Of a stretch of DNA of 64,000 nt, positions 26,717-36,265 are shown piece after piece. Position numbers and translations under genes: made by a program. The notes under the pieces are model-generated. The model made no database searches and was not told where the DNA came from. It worked only from the letters and a program-made list of their open reading frames with translations. The stretch comes from Methylacidiphilum caldifontis (GTDB lineage Bacteria; Verrucomicrobiota; Verrucomicrobiia; Methylacidiphilales; Methylacidiphilaceae). The stretch is from positions 1,178,001 to 1,242,000 of the forward strand of contig NZ_CP065957.1 in assembly GCF_017310505.1 (NCBI RefSeq). Reading direction: 5' to 3'. Position 1 is the stretch's first letter; each line of letters starts with the position of its first letter.

Positions 26717-29338
26717 TTAAAATTGGTAAGCTACGGTCCCCTGTATCCAAAACGCCTGTCCAGGAACAACCCAATCAGAATTCGATCCGCTATCAGGAGA
26801 AGCTCCCGCGGCTGCGGCATAAGGAATCCAGTAGTGACTATTAAAGAAATTCCAGAAATAAAGGTTAATCTGCCAGTGTTTACTTTGGTAAAAAAGCTGG
26901 AGATTAGCATAATCTTGAGCTGGGATCCAGGCGGTGTAATTCCAAAAACTTGGGGTTGCATCCATCCAAGTTCCACTCAGGGTGATTCCAAAACCATTAC
27001 TAAACTGATAACTGACCATGGCATTAGCCACAATCTCTGGAAAATCCATCCACGGCCATACGCCAGGCATATAACCAAATCCAAACATACCTGCATCGTC
27101 AAGAGGCAGGTGATGCCTAAAAGCATATCCCGTAGAATAAGACTGTGTTTCAGGAGGACCGAAAGGCAGATCACTAAAATTAGAAATACCACGCATGTAA
27201 GCAAAACCAGCCCTTGCCCAGAAATGCCTTGTAGGCTGATAATTCAAGTTGAATTGAAAAGCGGTCATATGAGTTACGACTGGAGGTAAAGCCACGTAGC
27301 CTTCTTCTAAATGGCTACGAATGCCCGCTGCAGTCAGATAAAGTTTGTTGTGATAAAGATTAAACTTGAGACCTCCTTCTATGTACTGGTCTAAAAGTCT
27401 CATGTTGTTGTCTGTAAAAACAGGAGCAAACCCACCCATATCGGCTGCTGCTGTGGAATAAAGCCAGTTAAAATTAAAATAGACGGTCATCCAGGGGAAA
27501 GGCCTGTATACTGGACTTATGTTGAAGAGGGGAGCAAGAGAAGTCGTGCGAAACTGAGCAAATTGATCTGAAGGAGTACCTGGAGGGGTCACCGCATCGA
27601 CGATATAAGTAGTTGCCCGTGCACCGGCAAGCAAACTGACTTTTGGATGAAACTGAATGTTCCACTGGAGAAAGGGGGCAAAAGCCCAATATTGGGAGTC
27701 TGTTGTCCCTGTAATTCCGTTACCCGGTTCAAAATAATAACCTGGCATACCCGGAATGGGCACTTCGATCTGTTGAGCCACCAGAGCCTGCCAAGCGGGT
27801 GTTAGTCTTGCATCCCAAAGTAAAGGATTTTCGTTCATAATATCAAATTCATTAGGAATATTCAAAAAACTTGTTGAGACATAATCGACATTTCTTTGGT
27901 AATGCCACTCAAAGCCAGTATCCACGTAATGAGAAAAATTAAGACCCTCTTGCTCCTCAAAGTCCTCTTTTTTACCCCAATGTGTCTTTCTTCCCGGTTT
28001 GCCGCCAACCGGGGTGTCAAACTGCAGCCTGATCTCGGTTCGATTATCGACCTCGTAATCTCCCATGACCGCTTCGTCATAAAAATAAGCGGGTTGAATC
28101 GCCCGGTGTCGGGTGTACCAGACCAAGGTGTTGTTTACGATATCGAATCCATCGGTAACGTGGACTCTTTGAATCAGCTGGGTCATCCCCTGATAACCCG
28201 TTTGTGCAGCATCCGGAGGAATAAGCATCGCTCTTCGATTAACCGGTTCAAGACCAGCTCCCGGAAACTGATTATAAGGAATAGGGACTCCATTAGGATA
28301 GGTGGGAGGAAAGCTATTTATTTGAGAAGGCGGCAGAAATCCCGTGTAATACAGGCCATTTAAGAATAGTTCATTAGAAGGCCGATTCATGCCACTGTAG
28401 CCAATGGGAGAAGCATCGGCAAATTCCATGTTAAAATACCAATCTGCGGTATAATTCTCGATGGGCTTGGCACTTAAGGCCGCATAAAAATCCTGCTCAT
28501 CATTATGTACGTATTGCCACCAGCTTCCACTTTCAACCCCCATGTAACTAAACCGGTAAGCCAGTTTATCATTGATTGGCCCTCCAATATCGAGTCCCCA
28601 CAGATAATTTTCATACATCCCCGTGGTGTCATAAACATAACCCCGGAATTTGTCAAAATAGGGTTGTTTGGTCACATAATTCACTATGCCATTGGACCCC
28701 TGTGTTTGACCATAGACCGCATTGGCTGGTCCTTCGAGAATATCGAACGATTGGATCATATTCCAATTCCAAGGAAGACCTGCATTACCCATCATGATAT
28801 TGGTTAATGAAAGTTCGATGCCATTCACATAAGGCACTGCTTGAGTTCCAAGGACATAGGGAGCATCGGTCATAAAATCCATAACCGATCCATAAGTGGT
28901 TGGATTAACAGTGAGTAACGCCATGGGATTCATCATCCCGCCAAGGGCATTGACACCACTGGAATACATCAAGGTTTGATTTACAGGGGTAACTGTTCTG
29001 GGTGTATCCATGACATTCATGGGAATTCCATAGACCGAGTCGATATCGGTTGAAGTCGGTTGCATAGGAAGGTTTGGTTGGGCATAAACGTTGACTTGCT
29101 CAATGGTTGTGGTGGGGGCAGGATCCGATTGGGTTGACTTCTTAAGAGTTGATCCTTCTTGTAGGGGAACAGTTCCATTCGGACCGGAGTCCTGAAAAAG
29201 CGGAGCTGGATCCAGGCTCGTATTTGCAGGGCTGCTAGCTGTTCCCTGTTGTGAATAACCTGGAAGACAAAGCGAATATAAACTACCCAAAAAAACAATA
29301 ATCCTGAAGCCCAGGTTGAATAAGAAAATTTTTCTCAT
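26717..29338 (-). CDS. TonB-dependent receptor
   Basis: An 873-residue receptor. Start ATG 29338 is chosen because AGAGG lies 7 nt upstream (29346-29350); a TTG two codons earlier is less likely. The signal peptide ends near PGYSQ. A low-complexity Ser/Pro/Thr segment (about 30-75) precedes IEQVNVYAQP, a possible TonB box, then the plug (VMDTPRTVTPVNQTLM, IQSFDILEGPANAVYGQTQGSNG). The barrel ends WIQGTVAYQF. Paralogous to the receptors at 1-1755 and 23280-25706. One extracellular loop carries a charged insert (KPGRKTHWGKKEDFEEQEG) absent from the other two. Substrate not predictable. Confidence 0.9.
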   Translation of the reverse strand: MRKIFLFNLGFRIIVFLGSLYSLCLPGYSQQGTASSPANTSLDPAPLFQDSGPNGTVPLQEGSTLKKSTQSDPAPTTTIEQVNVYAQPNLPMQPTSTDIDSVYGIPMNVMDTPRTVTPVNQTLMYSSGVNALGGMMNPMALLTVNPTTYGSVMDFMTDAPYVLGTQAVPYVNGIELSLTNIMMGNAGLPWNWNMIQSFDILEGPANAVYGQTQGSNGIVNYVTKQPYFDKFRGYVYDTTGMYENYLWGLDIGGPINDKLAYRFSYMGVESGSWWQYVHNDEQDFYAALSAKPIENYTADWYFNMEFADASPIGYSGMNRPSNELFLNGLYYTGFLPPSQINSFPPTYPNGVPIPYNQFPGAGLEPVNRRAMLIPPDAAQTGYQGMTQLIQRVHVTDGFDIVNNTLVWYTRHRAIQPAYFYDEAVMGDYEVDNRTEIRLQFDTPVGGKPGRKTHWGKKEDFEEQEGLNFSHYVDTGFEWHYQRNVDYVSTSFLNIPNEFDIMNENPLLWDARLTPAWQALVAQQIEVPIPGMPGYYFEPGNGITGTTDSQYWAFAPFLQWNIQFHPKVSLLAGARATTYIVDAVTPPGTPSDQFAQFRTTSLAPLFNISPVYRPFPWMTVYFNFNWLYSTAAADMGGFAPVFTDNNMRLLDQYIEGGLKFNLYHNKLYLTAAGIRSHLEEGYVALPPVVTHMTAFQFNLNYQPTRHFWARAGFAYMRGISNFSDLPFGPPETQSYSTGYAFRHHLPLDDAGMFGFGYMPGVWPWMDFPEIVANAMVSYQFSNGFGITLSGTWMDATPSFWNYTAWIPAQDYANLQLFYQSKHWQINLYFWNFFNSHYWIPYAAAAGASPDSGSNSDWVVPGQAFWIQGTVAYQF

Positions 29339-29562
29339 GGTCAAACCTCTACATTCATCGGTTTTTCTAAAAACGATCCCTTTTGATTATTTGATCCAAA
29401 TAAATTGAGTAAATACTAACCTTTATCGTGATGCGTATTACCTCCTCTAATATGGGAGGGAGAATAAAGAGAAAAAATTTCCTAAATTTAGAAAATTTTT
29501 AACCCGTTTAGGTCTAAGCCTAAAAAGAGACTCCCCTCACTCTTTCCCTACAGAAAGAACAC

Positions 29563-30870
29563 CTAGAGCTGCAATACTAGGTTTTTAAAATGTTCTCCTC
29601 GCTTTTCAAAATTGAGGTAAAGATGGTAGCTGGGAGCAGCAGGAGAAAAAAGACAGCTATAACCTTTAGGAGTATATCGGCTAGCCAAGAGAACCGCTTC
29701 CTCAAGATCTTTGGCAAAGAATATGTTTTTCTTTGTACATTTATCTTTTAACAAATAACCAATACGCCAACCGGTTTCAGGAAGAAGAATGAGATTTTCA
29801 ATCATGGTCAGTTCGCAGAGCCTCGAACTGAAAGACTCAAGGGAAATTCCCCTATCTTGCCCTCCAATAATGAGTGAGCGGACAGAGGGAATGGCCTCAA
29901 TCCCAGCAAGGGTCGCTTCAGGTACCGTAGATATCGAATCGTTGTAGTAAGCAACCCCTTTTACGGTCGCGACGTACTCGAGTCTATGCGGAAGCCCCTG
30001 AAAAGAATCCAAAGCTTCAGCTATGGCATTCGCAGGCATCCCAAGAAGCAAAGCCGCTGTGGCGGCAAACAGGGCATTCTTTTTATTATGCTTTCCAGGT
30101 ATCTTTAGCCGGCTCAGATCGATCAGGTTATCCTCTTTGCCATCGAGCTGAACGGGTATACCAGGCATTTTTTCTTGTGAAAAGAGATAGTTCGTTAGAT
30201 CTGGATTGTCTTGGTTATAGATGAAATAATCCCCTATAGACTGGAATCTTGCGATGTTGCTCTTGGCATGGGCATAAGCTTCAAAACTACCGTGATAGTT
30301 TAGATGTTCTTGATAAAGGTTTAACCAAAGAGCGATAGAAGGAGAATGCCTACAATACTCCAACTGGTAAGAGGAAAGCTCCAGTACCGCTATCGACTTT
30401 TCATCTGCAAAAGGAATAAGTCGAAAAGGAGGAATACCGATATTGCCTCCCATATAAACCTTGAATCCACCCTGTTTCAACAGGTGATAGATCAAAGAGC
30501 TTGTCGTGCTTTTGCCTTTAGAACCTGTTACACCGATAGTTTTTCCTGGCCAGAACCGAAGGAAGAGTTCTGTTTGTAACACGATTCGTTTCTTCAAAGA
30601 GGGATCAAAAGACAGATGCGCAGTTCGAATACCTGGACTTTTGACAATAAGCTCAAATTGATCAATCTGCTTGAGGAGCTGGTTTTCTTCAATTTTTTTT
30701 ACCCAAGGATTGTTGATCGCATTCAACGCTTGGAGATCTCTGTCACAGACATAGAAAAGGGTTTCAGGCAGAGTTTTGAGCAGTAATTCTAGGGTCGCTT
30801 GGCCTTCCATCCCCAAGCCCCAAACAAGGGTCTTTTTCCCCAAAAAGAAATTGCGAATAGAGTCAATCAT
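29563..30870 (-). CDS. murD2: MurD2-like UDP-MurNAc-L-Ala:L-glutamate ligase
   Basis: A 435-residue Mur ligase. Motifs: ATP loop GVTGSKGKSTTSS (about 113), ELSSYQLE, a GKHNKKNALFAATAAL block, and QGLPHRLEYV followed by YYNDSISTVPEATLAGI. Canonical MurD has NDSKATN there, and its Lys helps bind D-Glu; here it is Ile. NDSIST is the form I associate with MurD2 of Xanthomonas, which adds L-Glu. The gene overlaps the end of a MurL-like gene by 8 bp, and MurL epimerises the added L-Glu to D-Glu. That pairing supports MurD2 over MurD. Acts in the cytoplasm in peptidoglycan precursor synthesis. Whether a canonical murD exists elsewhere cannot be seen. Confidence 0.82.
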   Translation of the reverse strand: MIDSIRNFFLGKKTLVWGLGMEGQATLELLLKTLPETLFYVCDRDLQALNAINNPWVKKIEENQLLKQIDQFELIVKSPGIRTAHLSFDPSLKKRIVLQTELFLRFWPGKTIGVTGSKGKSTTSSLIYHLLKQGGFKVYMGGNIGIPPFRLIPFADEKSIAVLELSSYQLEYCRHSPSIALWLNLYQEHLNYHGSFEAYAHAKSNIARFQSIGDYFIYNQDNPDLTNYLFSQEKMPGIPVQLDGKEDNLIDLSRLKIPGKHNKKNALFAATAALLLGMPANAIAEALDSFQGLPHRLEYVATVKGVAYYNDSISTVPEATLAGIEAIPSVRSLIIGGQDRGISLESFSSRLCELTMIENLILLPETGWRIGYLLKDKCTKKNIFFAKDLEEAVLLASRYTPKGYSCLFSPAAPSYHLYLNFEKRGEHFKNLVLQL

Positions 30871-32281
30871 CGAAAAGAGCTTTTTTTATAACATTTTTTT
30901 GTAGAAGCGACAAAAATTTTTTTGGAAGGCTATGTTCAGTATTAACCAGGTCATAAGTTGCTTGGATAGCATTCCTAGTCATCAATAAATGAGGATATTG
31001 GCTAAAGAGTTTTTCAATCAAAACTGGGGGTTTTTTGCCAGTAGCTTTTGCTTTATGCCAGAGCAGACTTGCTGCAGCTAGGCTCTCTTCTTCCGTTCCC
31101 AAACATTCAAATGGTCTCTGTTCGGCTTTTCCACACAGGGACAAAAAAAGGGAAAAGAGGGATTGTTTTTCCAAGAGGTCGGATCCGAAAATTCCACTTA
31201 TCTTTTGAGCTTCAACAAATGGTCTGAAAATTAAGAAACTAAATAAACATTTAGCACAATGACCACACCAACCTCCGCAATGTCTATTTTTATTACAACT
31301 TTGGAAAACAGACAATGCACCAGGAATTTCCGATATTAACCGGGCAATCTGAATTTCGCTTAAGGGTCTTAAAAGACTGAAATAACTAAAAGAAGGACAA
31401 AGAGAGTCGGCCAGGAATTTTTGGAAATCTCTTTCAAACTCGTAGGATTTAGAGTATTGATGATTTATGCTCTCAGAGGGGACTGTAGGATGATTAGCAC
31501 TAGACTCCTGACTGGCTACATAATTTTTTATTTTGTAGAGGGCCATAAGCATCGTCCCCAAAAAAGCTAAAAGAGCCGAAAAAGGGGTATGCCCATTAAG
31601 AAAACCCTTTTTGTTAAGTTCGAGAAGAAGGCTATCGATCTGCCTTTCCACCACTATAACTTGATCAAGAGGATAAGAAAAATACCTGAGTGTATCCCAT
31701 TGAGCTTTTATGGGATTCAATAAAAAACAGAGGTTATTTTCTTTTTCTTCTTTCATCCATTCCAAGGTCAAAAAGGAATCCTTACCGCCTCCGACCGGAA
31801 TCAAATTACCTTGCAAAGAAAAAATTTCTACGGGCCTAAACTGTTTGGCTGAGTCGCATTCAATGTGCAAAATACCAGGATAGTCCCTCTCAATGCCGTT
31901 ACGGAAAAAAAACTCTCCAAGTCCCTTCAAATAAAGTTTTTGCCACCATTTTATCTGTGATGCAGCAAGGGAGCCTGCCTGGATTAGAATTTCTGGAGAG
32001 CAGGTCGCTTTCCAGTAGCTGATGAGTTCAATCAGTCCAAGCTGAAAAAGGAAAGGATCTAGCCATTCAGCACTCCCTTTTTCTATTGGCCTTCCATATA
32101 CCTTTAAGGAAGGGCGGAAAAAAAGAGCATTACGGCTATTCTTTCCAGTCCAAAATTCATATTCAATATAAAGGTGATCTAGCCTGTTCTCCCACGATAC
32201 ACGACTAAAAACAAACAGCGGATATAATTTCCTAAGCTGAAGAAAATCGGTTTTCCCGATCCCCGAAGAAACATAATCCAT
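30863..32281 (-). CDS. murL: MurL-like UDP-MurNAc-L-Ala-L-Glu epimerase
   Basis: A 472-residue cytoplasmic protein. It carries a PP-loop-like GNLIPVGGGKDSFLTLEWM (Ser near 169), ESSANHPT (about 265), INHQYSKSYEFERDF, FSLLRPLSEIQIARL (about 305) and a Cys cluster CGGWCGHCAKCLFSFLIF (about 338-355), then FGSDLLEKQS and PFECLGTEEES. This order matches MurL, which inverts the terminal L-Glu of UDP-MurNAc-L-Ala-L-Glu with ATP. MurL replaces glutamate racemase in supplying D-Glu to peptidoglycan. The stop overlaps the murD2 start by 8 bp. The identification is from remembered motif order, not a search. Confidence 0.8.
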   Translation of the reverse strand: MDYVSSGIGKTDFLQLRKLYPLFVFSRVSWENRLDHLYIEYEFWTGKNSRNALFFRPSLKVYGRPIEKGSAEWLDPFLFQLGLIELISYWKATCSPEILIQAGSLAASQIKWWQKLYLKGLGEFFFRNGIERDYPGILHIECDSAKQFRPVEIFSLQGNLIPVGGGKDSFLTLEWMKEEKENNLCFLLNPIKAQWDTLRYFSYPLDQVIVVERQIDSLLLELNKKGFLNGHTPFSALLAFLGTMLMALYKIKNYVASQESSANHPTVPSESINHQYSKSYEFERDFQKFLADSLCPSFSYFSLLRPLSEIQIARLISEIPGALSVFQSCNKNRHCGGWCGHCAKCLFSFLIFRPFVEAQKISGIFGSDLLEKQSLFSLFLSLCGKAEQRPFECLGTEEESLAAASLLWHKAKATGKKPPVLIEKLFSQYPHLLMTRNAIQATYDLVNTEHSLPKKFLSLLQKNVIKKALFDD

Positions 32282-32305: not shown

Positions 32306-33049
32306 TTAACCGAAGGCTTGGTTTGCCGCTTCAAGGACTTCCTTGCTTCCGATATCGAACCACAACCCTGATATTTCCCAGACATAGACGTCTTGCTTGG
32401 TATAAAGCCATTGGATAAACCGTCCAGGCTGATCCGTATTTTGCTGTTCCTTTAGATAAGTTTTGAAGGCAGTTAAGATCGTTTTGGGAAAAAAATAAAG
32501 GGCCATGGCAACCCATGTTGTTTGAGGATTTTCCGGTTTCTCCTCAAAATAAGTAAGCTTCCTGTTCTCATCAAAATTAACAACCCCGTATTTCGAAGCT
32601 AGCCTTTTATCTTTGAGGTTGTATATCCCCACAAGAGGTTTATTTTTTGTTTTTGCTTCATCCACAAAAGATAGAAGCGAAGAACTAAAGAGGTTATCGC
32701 TGGCAAGAACAAGCAAGTCATCCTCGATTTTCTTGGACTCTATGGCAAACTGGATATCTCCAATCGCTCCAAGCCGATTATGTTCTGTCGTTGAGCCATC
32801 ATCTAGTATTTCAACAACAAGCTTTCTTGTCGATTTTCCTAGGTAGCGCTCTTTCCATTCAACAAAATGGGTATAAAACTTGTGATTGGTCACCACATAA
32901 ATTTCATCTAGGCCAGGCAGTTCAAGGAGCTTATCTGTGATGTGGTTCATGATCGGTTGGCCAGCAACCGTTAAAAGGGCCTTGGGTTGGTTTAACGTAA
33001 GAGGATACAGTCTGGTTGCATAACCGGCAGAAAGCAGTAAAGCACGCAT
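32306..33049 (-). CDS. NDP-sugar nucleotidyltransferase
   Basis: A 247-residue nucleotidyltransferase of the glucose-1-phosphate thymidylyltransferase/RmlA type. Seen: MRALLLSAGYATRLYPLT with the nucleotide-binding Gly-rich loop, PKALLTVAGQPIMNHI, a metal-binding ASDN, and YFEEKPENPQ. The C-terminal WFDIGSKEVLEAAN closes the fold. It activates a sugar phosphate with an NTP; the sugar is uncertain. GGAGAA sits 5 nt before the ATG. It lies 24 bp before murL and 40 bp after ptsI in a single-direction run, so it may share their transcript. Confidence 0.88.
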   Translation of the reverse strand: MRALLLSAGYATRLYPLTLNQPKALLTVAGQPIMNHITDKLLELPGLDEIYVVTNHKFYTHFVEWKERYLGKSTRKLVVEILDDGSTTEHNRLGAIGDIQFAIESKKIEDDLLVLASDNLFSSSLLSFVDEAKTKNKPLVGIYNLKDKRLASKYGVVNFDENRKLTYFEEKPENPQTTWVAMALYFFPKTILTAFKTYLKEQQNTDQPGRFIQWLYTKQDVYVWEISGLWFDIGSKEVLEAANQAFG

Positions 33050-33089: not shown

Positions 33090-34853
33090 CTAGCTTTTGA
33101 AAAAGATGGGGGGTAAAAAAGATCGAGTGATCTCTTTTAATATTTCAAAAACTTCCTGAGCCGTCTTTGCTCTCCACAGTGGCTCAAGACTTCCTCTAAT
33201 TTTGCTGACATCCAAGAATTGCACAGCTCTTTTGGTCCTCTGAATGAATACCGAACCCATGCTGAGTCTATCGATTCCTAAAGCAAGGAAAAAAGGTAAA
33301 AGGTAGATGTCGCTAGACATCTCCCCACATATACTAATAGGAATGTTTTTCTTTATCGCCGCGTCAGCTGCCATTCGAATCAAAAGGAGAACAGAAGGAT
33401 GAAAAGGTTGATAAAGATACTCGACATTATTGTTCATTCGATCAACAGCTAGAGTATATTGAATGAGATCATTGCTGCCAATACTAAAAAAATCGACTAT
33501 CTGGGCAAAGTGTTCTGCAATCAGACATGAAGAAGGAGTTTCAATCATGATCCCACACTGAGGCTCTCCAAAGGGAATGCCCTGGGTCGAGAGTTCCTCT
33601 TTTGCTTGCTCAATGATCTCTTTTGTGGCGAGCACCTCGGAGAGATCTGTGATCATGGGGAACATCACCGATACATTGCCCTCTACTGCCGCTCTTAAGA
33701 TTGCCCTTAACTGCGTTTTAAACATCTCCTTTTCTTTCAAAGAAATCCGAATACCCCTTGCTCCTAGAACCGGATTTTCTTCCATCCATCTCCAGGGAAG
33801 ATACGCAACCACTTTGTCTGCTCCCAAGTCCAGGGTTCTAATGATAACCGGGTTAGGCTTGGCATTGACCGCTGCATTTCTATAAAGTTGGTACTGCTCT
33901 TCCTCCGTAGGGGGACGATTGGATTTCAAGAAAAGGAACTCCGTCCGGTAAAGTCCAATCCCATCAGCCCCGCTTTTGAGCATAACCGGTATATCCTCTG
34001 GAAACTCGATATTGGCAGAAACATACACTTTTTGTCCATCTTGAGACTGTACTTTTTGAGAGAGGATTTCATGATCTTTTTTTTCGTAAAAGAAACAGGA
34101 CAAAGCTTGCTTTTTCATCATTTCTATTTTTTCAGCTGAAGGGTTAACGATTAGAATTCCCTTTGAACCATCAACAAGAATTGTTTGCCCATTCGTTATG
34201 CTCTGCAAAAGATCCGGTACACCAACAATGGCGGGAATACCCTGGGACCTGGCTAAAATGACCGCATGAGAAGTTCTACTCCTATCTTCGGTAACAATAC
34301 CTGCAACATGTCTGAGATCAAGAGATACCAGGTCAGAGAGCATCAGCAAATCGGCTATTAATATTCTAGGAGAATCAAGGATCGGAGTATATCCTTCTTC
34401 ACCTTGAAGTTTTTTCAATACCCTTTTGGCTAGATCCCTGATTTCAATCGCTCTTTCCCTTAAGTATTCATCATCCCCGATCTTGTTCAGGCCAGCAATG
34501 AATGAACGGATGATATCCTGGTAAGCCGCTTCAACGCAAACAAGGTCCCGTTCCAATTTTTCTTTAACCGCCTGCAAAATCATTTCATCTTCAAGAGCCA
34601 GAATCTGCATATCAAAAAGGCTCTCTTCCACGGTCAATCCAAGGGAACTCAGTGAAGCTTTGGCTTTAAGAAGATCTTCTTTTGTTTGCAGAATGGCCTT
34701 TTCAAATCTTTCTAGTTCAGCACGAATTTCCGAAGGCAAAATCTTTTTTTGCCGGACGATTTCGTGCTCCAGTTGCAAGATCAAAGCAGAACCAATGGCA
34801 AAGCCTGGAGAAGCAGCAACTCCCTCCATGGCCTTTTCTTTAAGCTCCATCAT
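33090..34853 (-). CDS. ptsI: Phosphoenolpyruvate-protein phosphotransferase (PTS enzyme I)
   Basis: A 587-residue EI. The N-terminal swivelling domain has the active His in DRSRTSHAVILARSQGIPA (about residue 195), where most EI have GGRTSH. The PEP-binding barrel carries GIGLYRTEFLF, RTLDLGADK, NPVLGARGIR and the C-terminal SICGEMSSD with the catalytic Cys. It phosphorylates HPr from PEP. No EII permease lies nearby. With HPr and HPr kinase next door it most likely forms a regulatory phosphorelay. Confidence 0.93.
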   Translation of the reverse strand: MMELKEKAMEGVAASPGFAIGSALILQLEHEIVRQKKILPSEIRAELERFEKAILQTKEDLLKAKASLSSLGLTVEESLFDMQILALEDEMILQAVKEKLERDLVCVEAAYQDIIRSFIAGLNKIGDDEYLRERAIEIRDLAKRVLKKLQGEEGYTPILDSPRILIADLLMLSDLVSLDLRHVAGIVTEDRSRTSHAVILARSQGIPAIVGVPDLLQSITNGQTILVDGSKGILIVNPSAEKIEMMKKQALSCFFYEKKDHEILSQKVQSQDGQKVYVSANIEFPEDIPVMLKSGADGIGLYRTEFLFLKSNRPPTEEEQYQLYRNAAVNAKPNPVIIRTLDLGADKVVAYLPWRWMEENPVLGARGIRISLKEKEMFKTQLRAILRAAVEGNVSVMFPMITDLSEVLATKEIIEQAKEELSTQGIPFGEPQCGIMIETPSSCLIAEHFAQIVDFFSIGSNDLIQYTLAVDRMNNNVEYLYQPFHPSVLLLIRMAADAAIKKNIPISICGEMSSDIYLLPFFLALGIDRLSMGSVFIQRTKRAVQFLDVSKIRGSLEPLWRAKTAQEVFEILKEITRSFLPPIFFKS

Positions 34854-34913
34854 ATTTCGCCGTCTTTAAAAAACTAACTGGTCTTCTCCCCTTTTTTATG
34901 ACTTATCCCTTCT

Positions 34914-35231
34914 TCAGGATTCTTCACCAAATTTGTTATTTACAAGGTTAACAAGCGCCTCTACGGCTTCCCGAGCATCCCTACCCGTAGCGGTTATTTT
35001 TAGTTTTGATCCTTTACTAGCAGCCAAAAGCATGATCCCCATGATGCTCTTTCCATTGACTTCTTCTCCATCTTTTTCTACCCTAATATCGGATTCATAC
35101 CGGTTAGCAATCTTAACAAACATTGCTGCAGGCCTTGCATGAATCCCCAACTTGTTTTGAACAAGCACTTCGGATGCCACCGGAGAAAACTTTTCTTTTT
35201 GTTCCTCCGCACTTCGATCTTCTGCATTCAT
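34914..35231 (-). CDS. ptsH: HPr phosphocarrier protein
   Basis: A 105-residue protein with an extra N-terminal segment of about 18 residues before the HPr fold. The active His is in GIHARPA (His-31). The regulatory Ser targeted by HPr kinase is in NGKSIMGIM (Ser-62). Its ATG directly abuts the TAG of hprK. It receives phosphate from enzyme I on His and from HprK on Ser. Confidence 0.94.
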   Translation of the reverse strand: MNAEDRSAEEQKEKFSPVASEVLVQNKLGIHARPAAMFVKIANRYESDIRVEKDGEEVNGKSIMGIMLLAASKGSKLKITATGRDAREAVEALVNLVNNKFGEES

Positions 35232-36212
35232 CTATAGTTTCCTACTGTTTTTGCCGGTTATTTTTAGCAATTTTTCGTTGAACTCAGCAGCAGCGTTGTA
35301 TCCCATAGATCTTAATTTCTGATCTAATGCCGCCACTTCAACTAAAGTAGCCAAATCCCTTCCAGGCCGAATCGGGATAGTGACATGGGGAACTTTAATA
35401 TTAAAAATCTCATAATAACTCTGATTTAAATTTACCCTTTCAATCTCATCCCCTTTTTCTACTTCCTTAAGCGTTGCAACCATGTCCAATTTTTTTTCAG
35501 GTCGAATGGCCCTTAATCCAAAAAGAGTAGTCACATCAATTATTCCTATTCCCCTCACCTCCATATGAAATCGACCCAAATCTGGAGCCCTACCCACCAA
35601 CTCCCTTCCTTCCAGGCAATAAATCGTAGTAATATCATCAGCTACCAAAGAGTACCCCCTTTCGACTAGAGAAAGAACACATTCGCTTTTCCCGATCCCA
35701 CTTGGTCCTTTGATAAGAACGCCTATGCCCTGAATATCCACCATGCTACCTTGTTCATTGGTCCGTGGCGCAAAATCCATTTCCAGGCATATAGTTACCG
35801 TATTGATTAACCTCATTGTATGGAGTTGTGAAACAAAAAGGGGAACTCCCAATAGTTCTGCCTGTTTAACGATAAAGGAAGGAGGCGTCATCCCCCGGGA
35901 AATAATCAGGCAAGGAATTTTCTTCATGAAAAGTTGTCTTACCCGTTGTTCAGACTCCTCGGTCGCAAGGCTTTTTAGATAGGACATCTCTCCCCACCCA
36001 ATAATCTGAACTCTTTGTCTTGGGAAATATCGCAAATAACCTGACAGTTGTAAGCCTGGCCTGTTAATTGAACCTTCTCTGATCAGCCGATTAAAACCTT
36101 TTTTACCTGCGATCAGTTTCAGTTGAAGCAGTTCGCCATGTTGCTTGTAAAACTCTCCAATAGTTATTTTGGGAATAAACTTAGTCGATATACTATTGGA
36201 TTGAACTTTCAT
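35232..36212 (-). CDS. hprK: HPr kinase/phosphorylase
   Basis: A 326-residue HprK. It has a Walker A GPSGIGKSE (about 159), LVADDITTIY (the metal-site Asp) and the HprK signature MEVRGIGIIDVTTLFG, then PIRPGRDLATLVEVAAL. It phosphorylates and dephosphorylates HPr on Ser. The ATG at 36212 is preferred over a TTG five codons upstream; neither has a strong ribosome site. It is the first of the hprK-ptsH-ptsI set. Confidence 0.92.
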   Translation of the reverse strand: MKVQSNSISTKFIPKITIGEFYKQHGELLQLKLIAGKKGFNRLIREGSINRPGLQLSGYLRYFPRQRVQIIGWGEMSYLKSLATEESEQRVRQLFMKKIPCLIISRGMTPPSFIVKQAELLGVPLFVSQLHTMRLINTVTICLEMDFAPRTNEQGSMVDIQGIGVLIKGPSGIGKSECVLSLVERGYSLVADDITTIYCLEGRELVGRAPDLGRFHMEVRGIGIIDVTTLFGLRAIRPEKKLDMVATLKEVEKGDEIERVNLNQSYYEIFNIKVPHVTIPIRPGRDLATLVEVAALDQKLRSMGYNAAAEFNEKLLKITGKNSRKL

Positions 36213-36265
36213 CAAGAAGCTTGGCAAACTTTTCTTATAAGAAACAAAATTATCTTAAAAAATCA

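Follow-up and report, generated by a model that had tools for sequence, protein, structure and literature searches.

The stretch of DNA analysed here (hereafter the window) comprises 64,000 nucleotides of Methylacidiphilum caldifontis, a probable methane oxidiser of the family Methylacidiphilaceae (Verrucomicrobiota). It spans positions 1178001-1242000 of a genome assembled in one contig (2,254,698 bases, 99.98% complete) and contains an overlapping gene pair, murL and murD2, which we conclude encodes the MurD2-MurL route to D-glutamate (D-Glu; probability of roughly 0.9). We prefer this reading because MurL adjoins the genome's only, matching ligase and the genome has no recognisable racemase gene. 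By analogy with the biochemistry of Xanthomonas, where the partner of MurL is MurD2, a ligase accepting L-glutamate (L-Glu; PMC8788868), L-Glu would first be attached to the cell-wall precursor by the L-Glu-type MurD2. MurL would then turn the terminal L-Glu of the precursor into D-Glu, using ATP and releasing AMP, and the addition of diaminopimelate by MurE would come after this inversion. The features of the region are listed in Table 1.

Table 1. Features of the murL-murD2 region, in window coordinates.
Feature	Position	Strand	Evidence
murD2, only murD of the genome	29563..30870	-	TIGR01087, 307.7 bits (cut-off 211.95); E188/I313/R340 at MurD2 specificity positions
MurD2 Arg340	29851..29853	-	Corresponds to E. 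coli Lys348 and X. oryzae MurD2 Arg358
MurD2 Ile313	29932..29934	-	Corresponds to E. coli Lys319, where the change K319T enables MurD to accept L-Glu (PMC8788868)
MurD2 Glu188	30307..30309	-	Corresponds to E. coli Asp182 and X. oryzae MurD2 Glu197
8-nt overlap ATGATTGA, murD2 start with murL stop	30863..30870	-	Read directly
murL open reading frame	30863-32281	-	Intact, 472 aa, ATG start; NF041275 match; motifs common with X. sacchari MurL; AlphaFold model pLDDT 91.7
Cys cluster C329-X9-C339-X2-C342-X2-C345, predicted zinc site	31247..31297	-	Resembles QueC C(x)8CxxCxxC (PMC13329287)
NHQYSKSYEFE motif	31433..31465	-	X. sacchari MurL has NHQ, SK and FE too
GGGKDS, PP-loop-type ATP pyrophosphate-binding motif, MurL residues 164-169	31775..31792	-	Also in X. 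sacchari MurL; fold match to QueC/QatC
Sugar-1-phosphate nucleotidylyltransferase gene	32306..33049	-	Just upstream of murL; PF00483, E=1.4e-35

The first-pass annotation of this DNA had read the murL frame as a MurL-like epimerase from the order of its motifs, and that reading is borne out. The frame is intact between exactly the ends it had been assigned, and its sole NCBIfam match is to MurL (NF041275, E=4.8e-64), with protein residues 69-462 aligned to positions 52-445 of a 447-position profile, i.e., nearly the full length; this match is far beyond chance. All of the motifs claimed for MurL are present in the order given, namely GGGKDS, ESSAN (residues 259-263), NHQYSKSYEFE (273-283), SLLRPLSEIQIARL (302-315), the Cys cluster, and PFECLG (390-395). 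Most residues conserved between the X. sacchari MurL and 80-odd relatives fall within these motifs, and at the columns of an 88-sequence alignment that are at least 97% conserved and common to X. sacchari, the window MurL keeps every residue except one (Met176 for Leu).

The strongest point for the MurL route is the partner gene, an overlapping, sole murD bearing the published MurD2 residues for L-Glu specificity. It lies next downstream of murL, the overlap suggests translational coupling, and no second murD was found in the genome. Exchanging two of these residues in the X. oryzae MurD2 (E197D/R358K) yields a D-Glu ligase (PMC8788868). The combination E/I/R at the three specificity columns is shared by the window MurD, the X. 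sacchari MurD2, and six of six Methylacidiphilales relatives, and recurs in the murL-linked MurDs of Bacteroidota and Bacillota (n=76; E in 75, I and R in all 76). Among 30 Verrucomicrobiota MurDs from MurL-free genomes, the first column is D (19) or N (11), followed by K and K in all 30. The third-column R is not diagnostic on its own, as the MurD of Streptococcus mutans also has it (PMC8788868). At the positions of E. coli A414 and L416, where P and F are the MurD2 residues, the window protein has P413 and Y415; in PMC8788868, these two positions did not alter specificity. In a MurD tree built by a quick method, in which X. sacchari and a divergent pair (G217, see below) form long branches, one branch (Shimodaira-Hasegawa-like approximate likelihood ratio support of 99) divides all canonical MurDs from the whole murL-linked set, to which X. 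sacchari belongs.

The division and cell wall (dcw) cluster lies ~1.02 Mb away and holds rsmH, an ftsI-type penicillin-binding protein gene, murE, murF, mraY, a LysM-type protein gene, ftsW, murG, a murC-murB fusion, and ddl. A murD is missing from it between mraY and ftsW, where E. coli has this gene. We did note that the LysM-type protein (L135, 9258-9947) occupies the place of the E. coli murD, in a cluster that also carries the murC-murB fusion.

Other sources of D-Glu were sought across the whole genome. No murI was matched by profile search at E 0.001, and no D-amino-acid transaminase exceeded its cut-off, the best candidate reaching 181 bits (cut-off 277) and matching ilvE better. The two Aminotran_4 genes of the genome are an ilvE, above its own cut-off, and a pabC-like gene, below every cut-off. 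Together with the MurL match, these results support the first-pass proposal that D-Glu is made on the precursor rather than by a racemase, and MurL is probably the sole D-Glu source in this genome.

Several observations weigh against the MurD2-MurL route. NF041275 is an equivalog named for the Xanthomonadales MurL with a curated cut-off of 700 bits, which the window protein misses at 216.5 bits, placing it in the wider MurL family only and not in the equivalog. The X. sacchari MurL scores 836.5 bits, Methylacidiphilales proteins 206-272, and examples from Bacteroidales and Lachnospiraceae ~250-260. Identity between the window and X. sacchari proteins is only 27%, and we found no activity data for any Verrucomicrobiota MurL in the open literature. 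Transaminases of the IlvE type may also act to some extent on D-amino acids. Finally, the genome contains dapF, and the DapF of Chlamydia trachomatis makes D-Glu (PMC5885031); DapF could be a second D-Glu source here.

The latter two points bear on alternative sources of D-Glu. MurL could be present and active but redundant, with D-Glu also coming from a racemase of free Glu or a transaminase that escaped recognition. Both MurL and a D-amino-acid transaminase above cut-off are absent from most MurI-less Verrucomicrobiota surveyed, and the phylum must therefore have some other source. The M. caldifontis genome has no second, D-Glu-type MurD to use free D-Glu, which counts against such a source here, and we regard redundancy as unlikely.

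The main rival to the MurL route is a promiscuous DapF that makes free D-Glu, as in C. trachomatis, leaving the MurL-like protein with some other role. DapF has been proposed as the D-Glu source of Planctomycetes-Verrucomicrobia-Chlamydiae (PVC) bacteria generally, those without MurI (PMC5885031), and the DapF encoded here carries GADG and GVPH, unlike several solved DapFs and in apparent agreement with G45 and V145 of the chlamydial enzyme (read from the description in PMC5885031, with no chlamydial sequence aligned). The chlamydial enzyme is likewise a MurI-independent source within the PVC superphylum but differs from MurL in acting on free Glu with pyridoxal phosphate and in needing a D-Glu-specific MurD. 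The sole MurD of M. caldifontis has L-Glu-type residues, so free D-Glu would be without a matching ligase, and the pairing of MurL with MurD would be left unexplained. Xanthomonas, another organism for which PMC5885031 suggested DapF, uses MurD2/MurL (PMC8788868). We therefore hold a DapF supply to be improbable.

The fold of MurL offers a view of how the proposed epimerisation might proceed. An AlphaFold model built from a 43-sequence alignment (mean predicted local distance difference test score, pLDDT, 91.7) matched QatC (Z 17.8, root-mean-square deviation (rmsd) 4.0 over 326 residues) and QueC (Z 13.1, rmsd 3.9 over 202 residues), with other PP-loop enzymes well below at Z ~8. GGGKDS occupies the PP-loop place of QueC and QatC, Gly replacing the first Ser of SGGxDS, and the window C(x)9CxxCxxC resembles the QueC zinc motif, with CGHCAKC where E. 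coli QueC has CGHCAAC. At the sequence level, hhalign aligned the zinc-motif region with QueC (E=0.0023, probability just 12.5%), a profile search gave a PP-loop hit to TtuA (E=0.0012), the Pfam QueC family PF06508 gave no match for the window MurL and weak ones in 10 of 43 relatives (best E=0.012), and a search of the PDB with the MurL sequence alone returned nothing. Given this weak sequence support, the QueC-like reading rests on fold and motif order. In the model, the PP-loop ATPase fold of MurL resembles that of QueC/QatC and includes a four-Cys zinc motif of the QueC type, a kinship of fold and not of QueC function: the two share fold, PP-loop motif, zinc motif, and ATP use, whereas the canonical QueC motifs are not recognised in MurL and its substrate would be a UDP-MurNAc-dipeptide. 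An Fe-S sulfurtransferase of the TtuA/LarE type (Z ~8) was rejected, as the scores of QueC and QatC are far higher and the Cys residues are spaced as in QueC. A QueC/QatC-family function in nucleobase metabolism or phage defence, with no role in peptidoglycan, is very improbable for the protein, since, although QatC and QueC are its best structural matches, it has no Pfam match and no PADLOC match (the ground on which a phage-defence QatC was rejected), its family match is MurL, and murL accompanies murD in every Methylacidiphilales locus examined.

The predicted fold and zinc motif suggest that MurL adenylates a glutamate carboxylate. Reviews describe MurL as without a known domain and propose adenylation of the α-carboxylate; the ATP-dependent activation of a carboxylate by QueC agrees with the ATP-to-AMP chemistry reported for MurL. 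Read as a PP-loop enzyme akin to QueC whose zinc is structural, MurL would adenylate the α-carboxylate of the terminal Glu, making its α-proton acidic; deprotonation and reprotonation from the other face would follow, and adenylate hydrolysis would drive the reaction in one direction only. The QueC-family literature we found does not mention MurL, though this covers open literature only, and earlier notice of the fold or of the residue signature is possible.

MurL is sparsely distributed. Within a sample of 289 Verrucomicrobiota genomes it occurs in nine, one of them (G126) with a weak match and no murD; murI is above cut-off in 77, none of which also has MurL, and G075 gives one weak murI match (27.6 bits). 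MurL throughout the whole order was rejected: 15 of 62 genomes carry it, from two families (13 of 13 in the window's family, two of three in the second, whose remaining genome is 82% complete), and the other families of the order have none. The MurL of a Methylacidiphilaceae metagenome-assembled genome (L020) is 78% identical to that of G263, from the same family as the window genome. In roughly 177 of the 289 sampled Verrucomicrobiota, murI (at E 0.001), MurL, and a D-amino-acid transaminase above cut-off are all absent; DapF is the published suggestion for the D-Glu source of such MurI-less members (PMC5885031).

A scan of a genome collection returned >500 MurL relatives. Among the best 80 loci, mostly from Bacteroidota and Bacillota, a MurD gene follows MurL in 78, and L056 is cut by a contig end. 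The Bacteroidota and Bacillota pairs (L021-L099), from phyla not named as MurL carriers in the reviews consulted, have MurLs ~35-41% identical to the window's, with the same gene order and E/I/R ligase residues, and murI stays below cut-off in all 23 of their genomes that were tested. They differ in that MurL and MurD are fused into single open reading frames in L034 (4944-7715, 924 aa) and L073 (631-3270, 880 aa), a natural two-domain enzyme. None of 24 genomes tested among the relative loci has murI above cut-off; nine give weak 25-59-bit matches, and completeness is not stated. MurL did not prove common in Bacteroidia, where one of 247 sampled genomes has it, the query genome itself; this sporadic occurrence matches the expectation for horizontal transfer. 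We consider it reasonably likely, as a joint claim, that MurL represents a QueC-like PP-loop adenylase, bearing zinc, that has been turned into an epimerase, and that murL-murD2 is a mobile replacement module by which the dcw murD and the supply of free D-Glu were displaced in Methylacidiphilaceae and, in sporadic cases, in Bacteroidota and Bacillota.

Some outlying relatives were also seen. On a 4.7-kb contig of G217 (L010, 155-2838), a MurL-MurD pair has Ser/Asp for all four zinc-site Cys in MurL and D/I/R in MurD, and is by its sequence a divergent or altered version. G126 encodes a divergent MurL-like protein (L011, 1291-2442; 66.6 bits) near a methyltransferase, with no murD in the examined stretch. 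A MurL-like gene without a murD neighbour lies on a Pseudonocardia alni plasmid (L103, 3911-5311; NF041275, 323 bits), with relatives on two further Pseudonocardia plasmids.

The closest characterised systems are the MurL/MurD2 pairs of Xanthomonas oryzae (XOO_1319/XOO_1320) and X. sacchari, which share the motif set and MurD2 residues with the window pair; gene order and overlap are also the same in X. sacchari, and Xanthomonas likewise has no murI (PMC8788868). They belong to a different phylum and differ in neighbourhood, the Xanthomonas pair adjoining an aspartate kinase and the window pair a nucleotidyltransferase and ptsI/ptsH/hprK. In five related genomes (L003, L005, L006, L007, and L008), too, the nucleotidylyltransferase gene precedes murL. 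Farther upstream in the window, ptsI, ptsH (HPr), and hprK (window 33090-36227) form a single reverse-strand run, such that a phosphotransfer regulatory system adjoins the cell-wall operon. On the other side lies a TonB-dependent-receptor-like protein of 875 aa (window 26717-29344), with weak FhuA/FepA matches and no Pfam match.

MurL-MurD2 is a known route, found here in a phylum outside the reviews' listing; what the present analysis adds is the predicted QueC-like fold and the residue signature. The pair extends the MurD2-MurL route beyond the Gamma- and Alphaproteobacteria and Actinobacteria of the review (PMC8788868), and the E/I/R signature beside murL allows the route to be called from sequence, while the predicted QueC-like fold makes the MurL mechanism directly testable. 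For the PVC bacteria, it would give a specific answer to the origin of D-Glu in one MurI-less lineage and a counter-example to the proposal of DapF as the D-Glu source across the group (PMC5885031).
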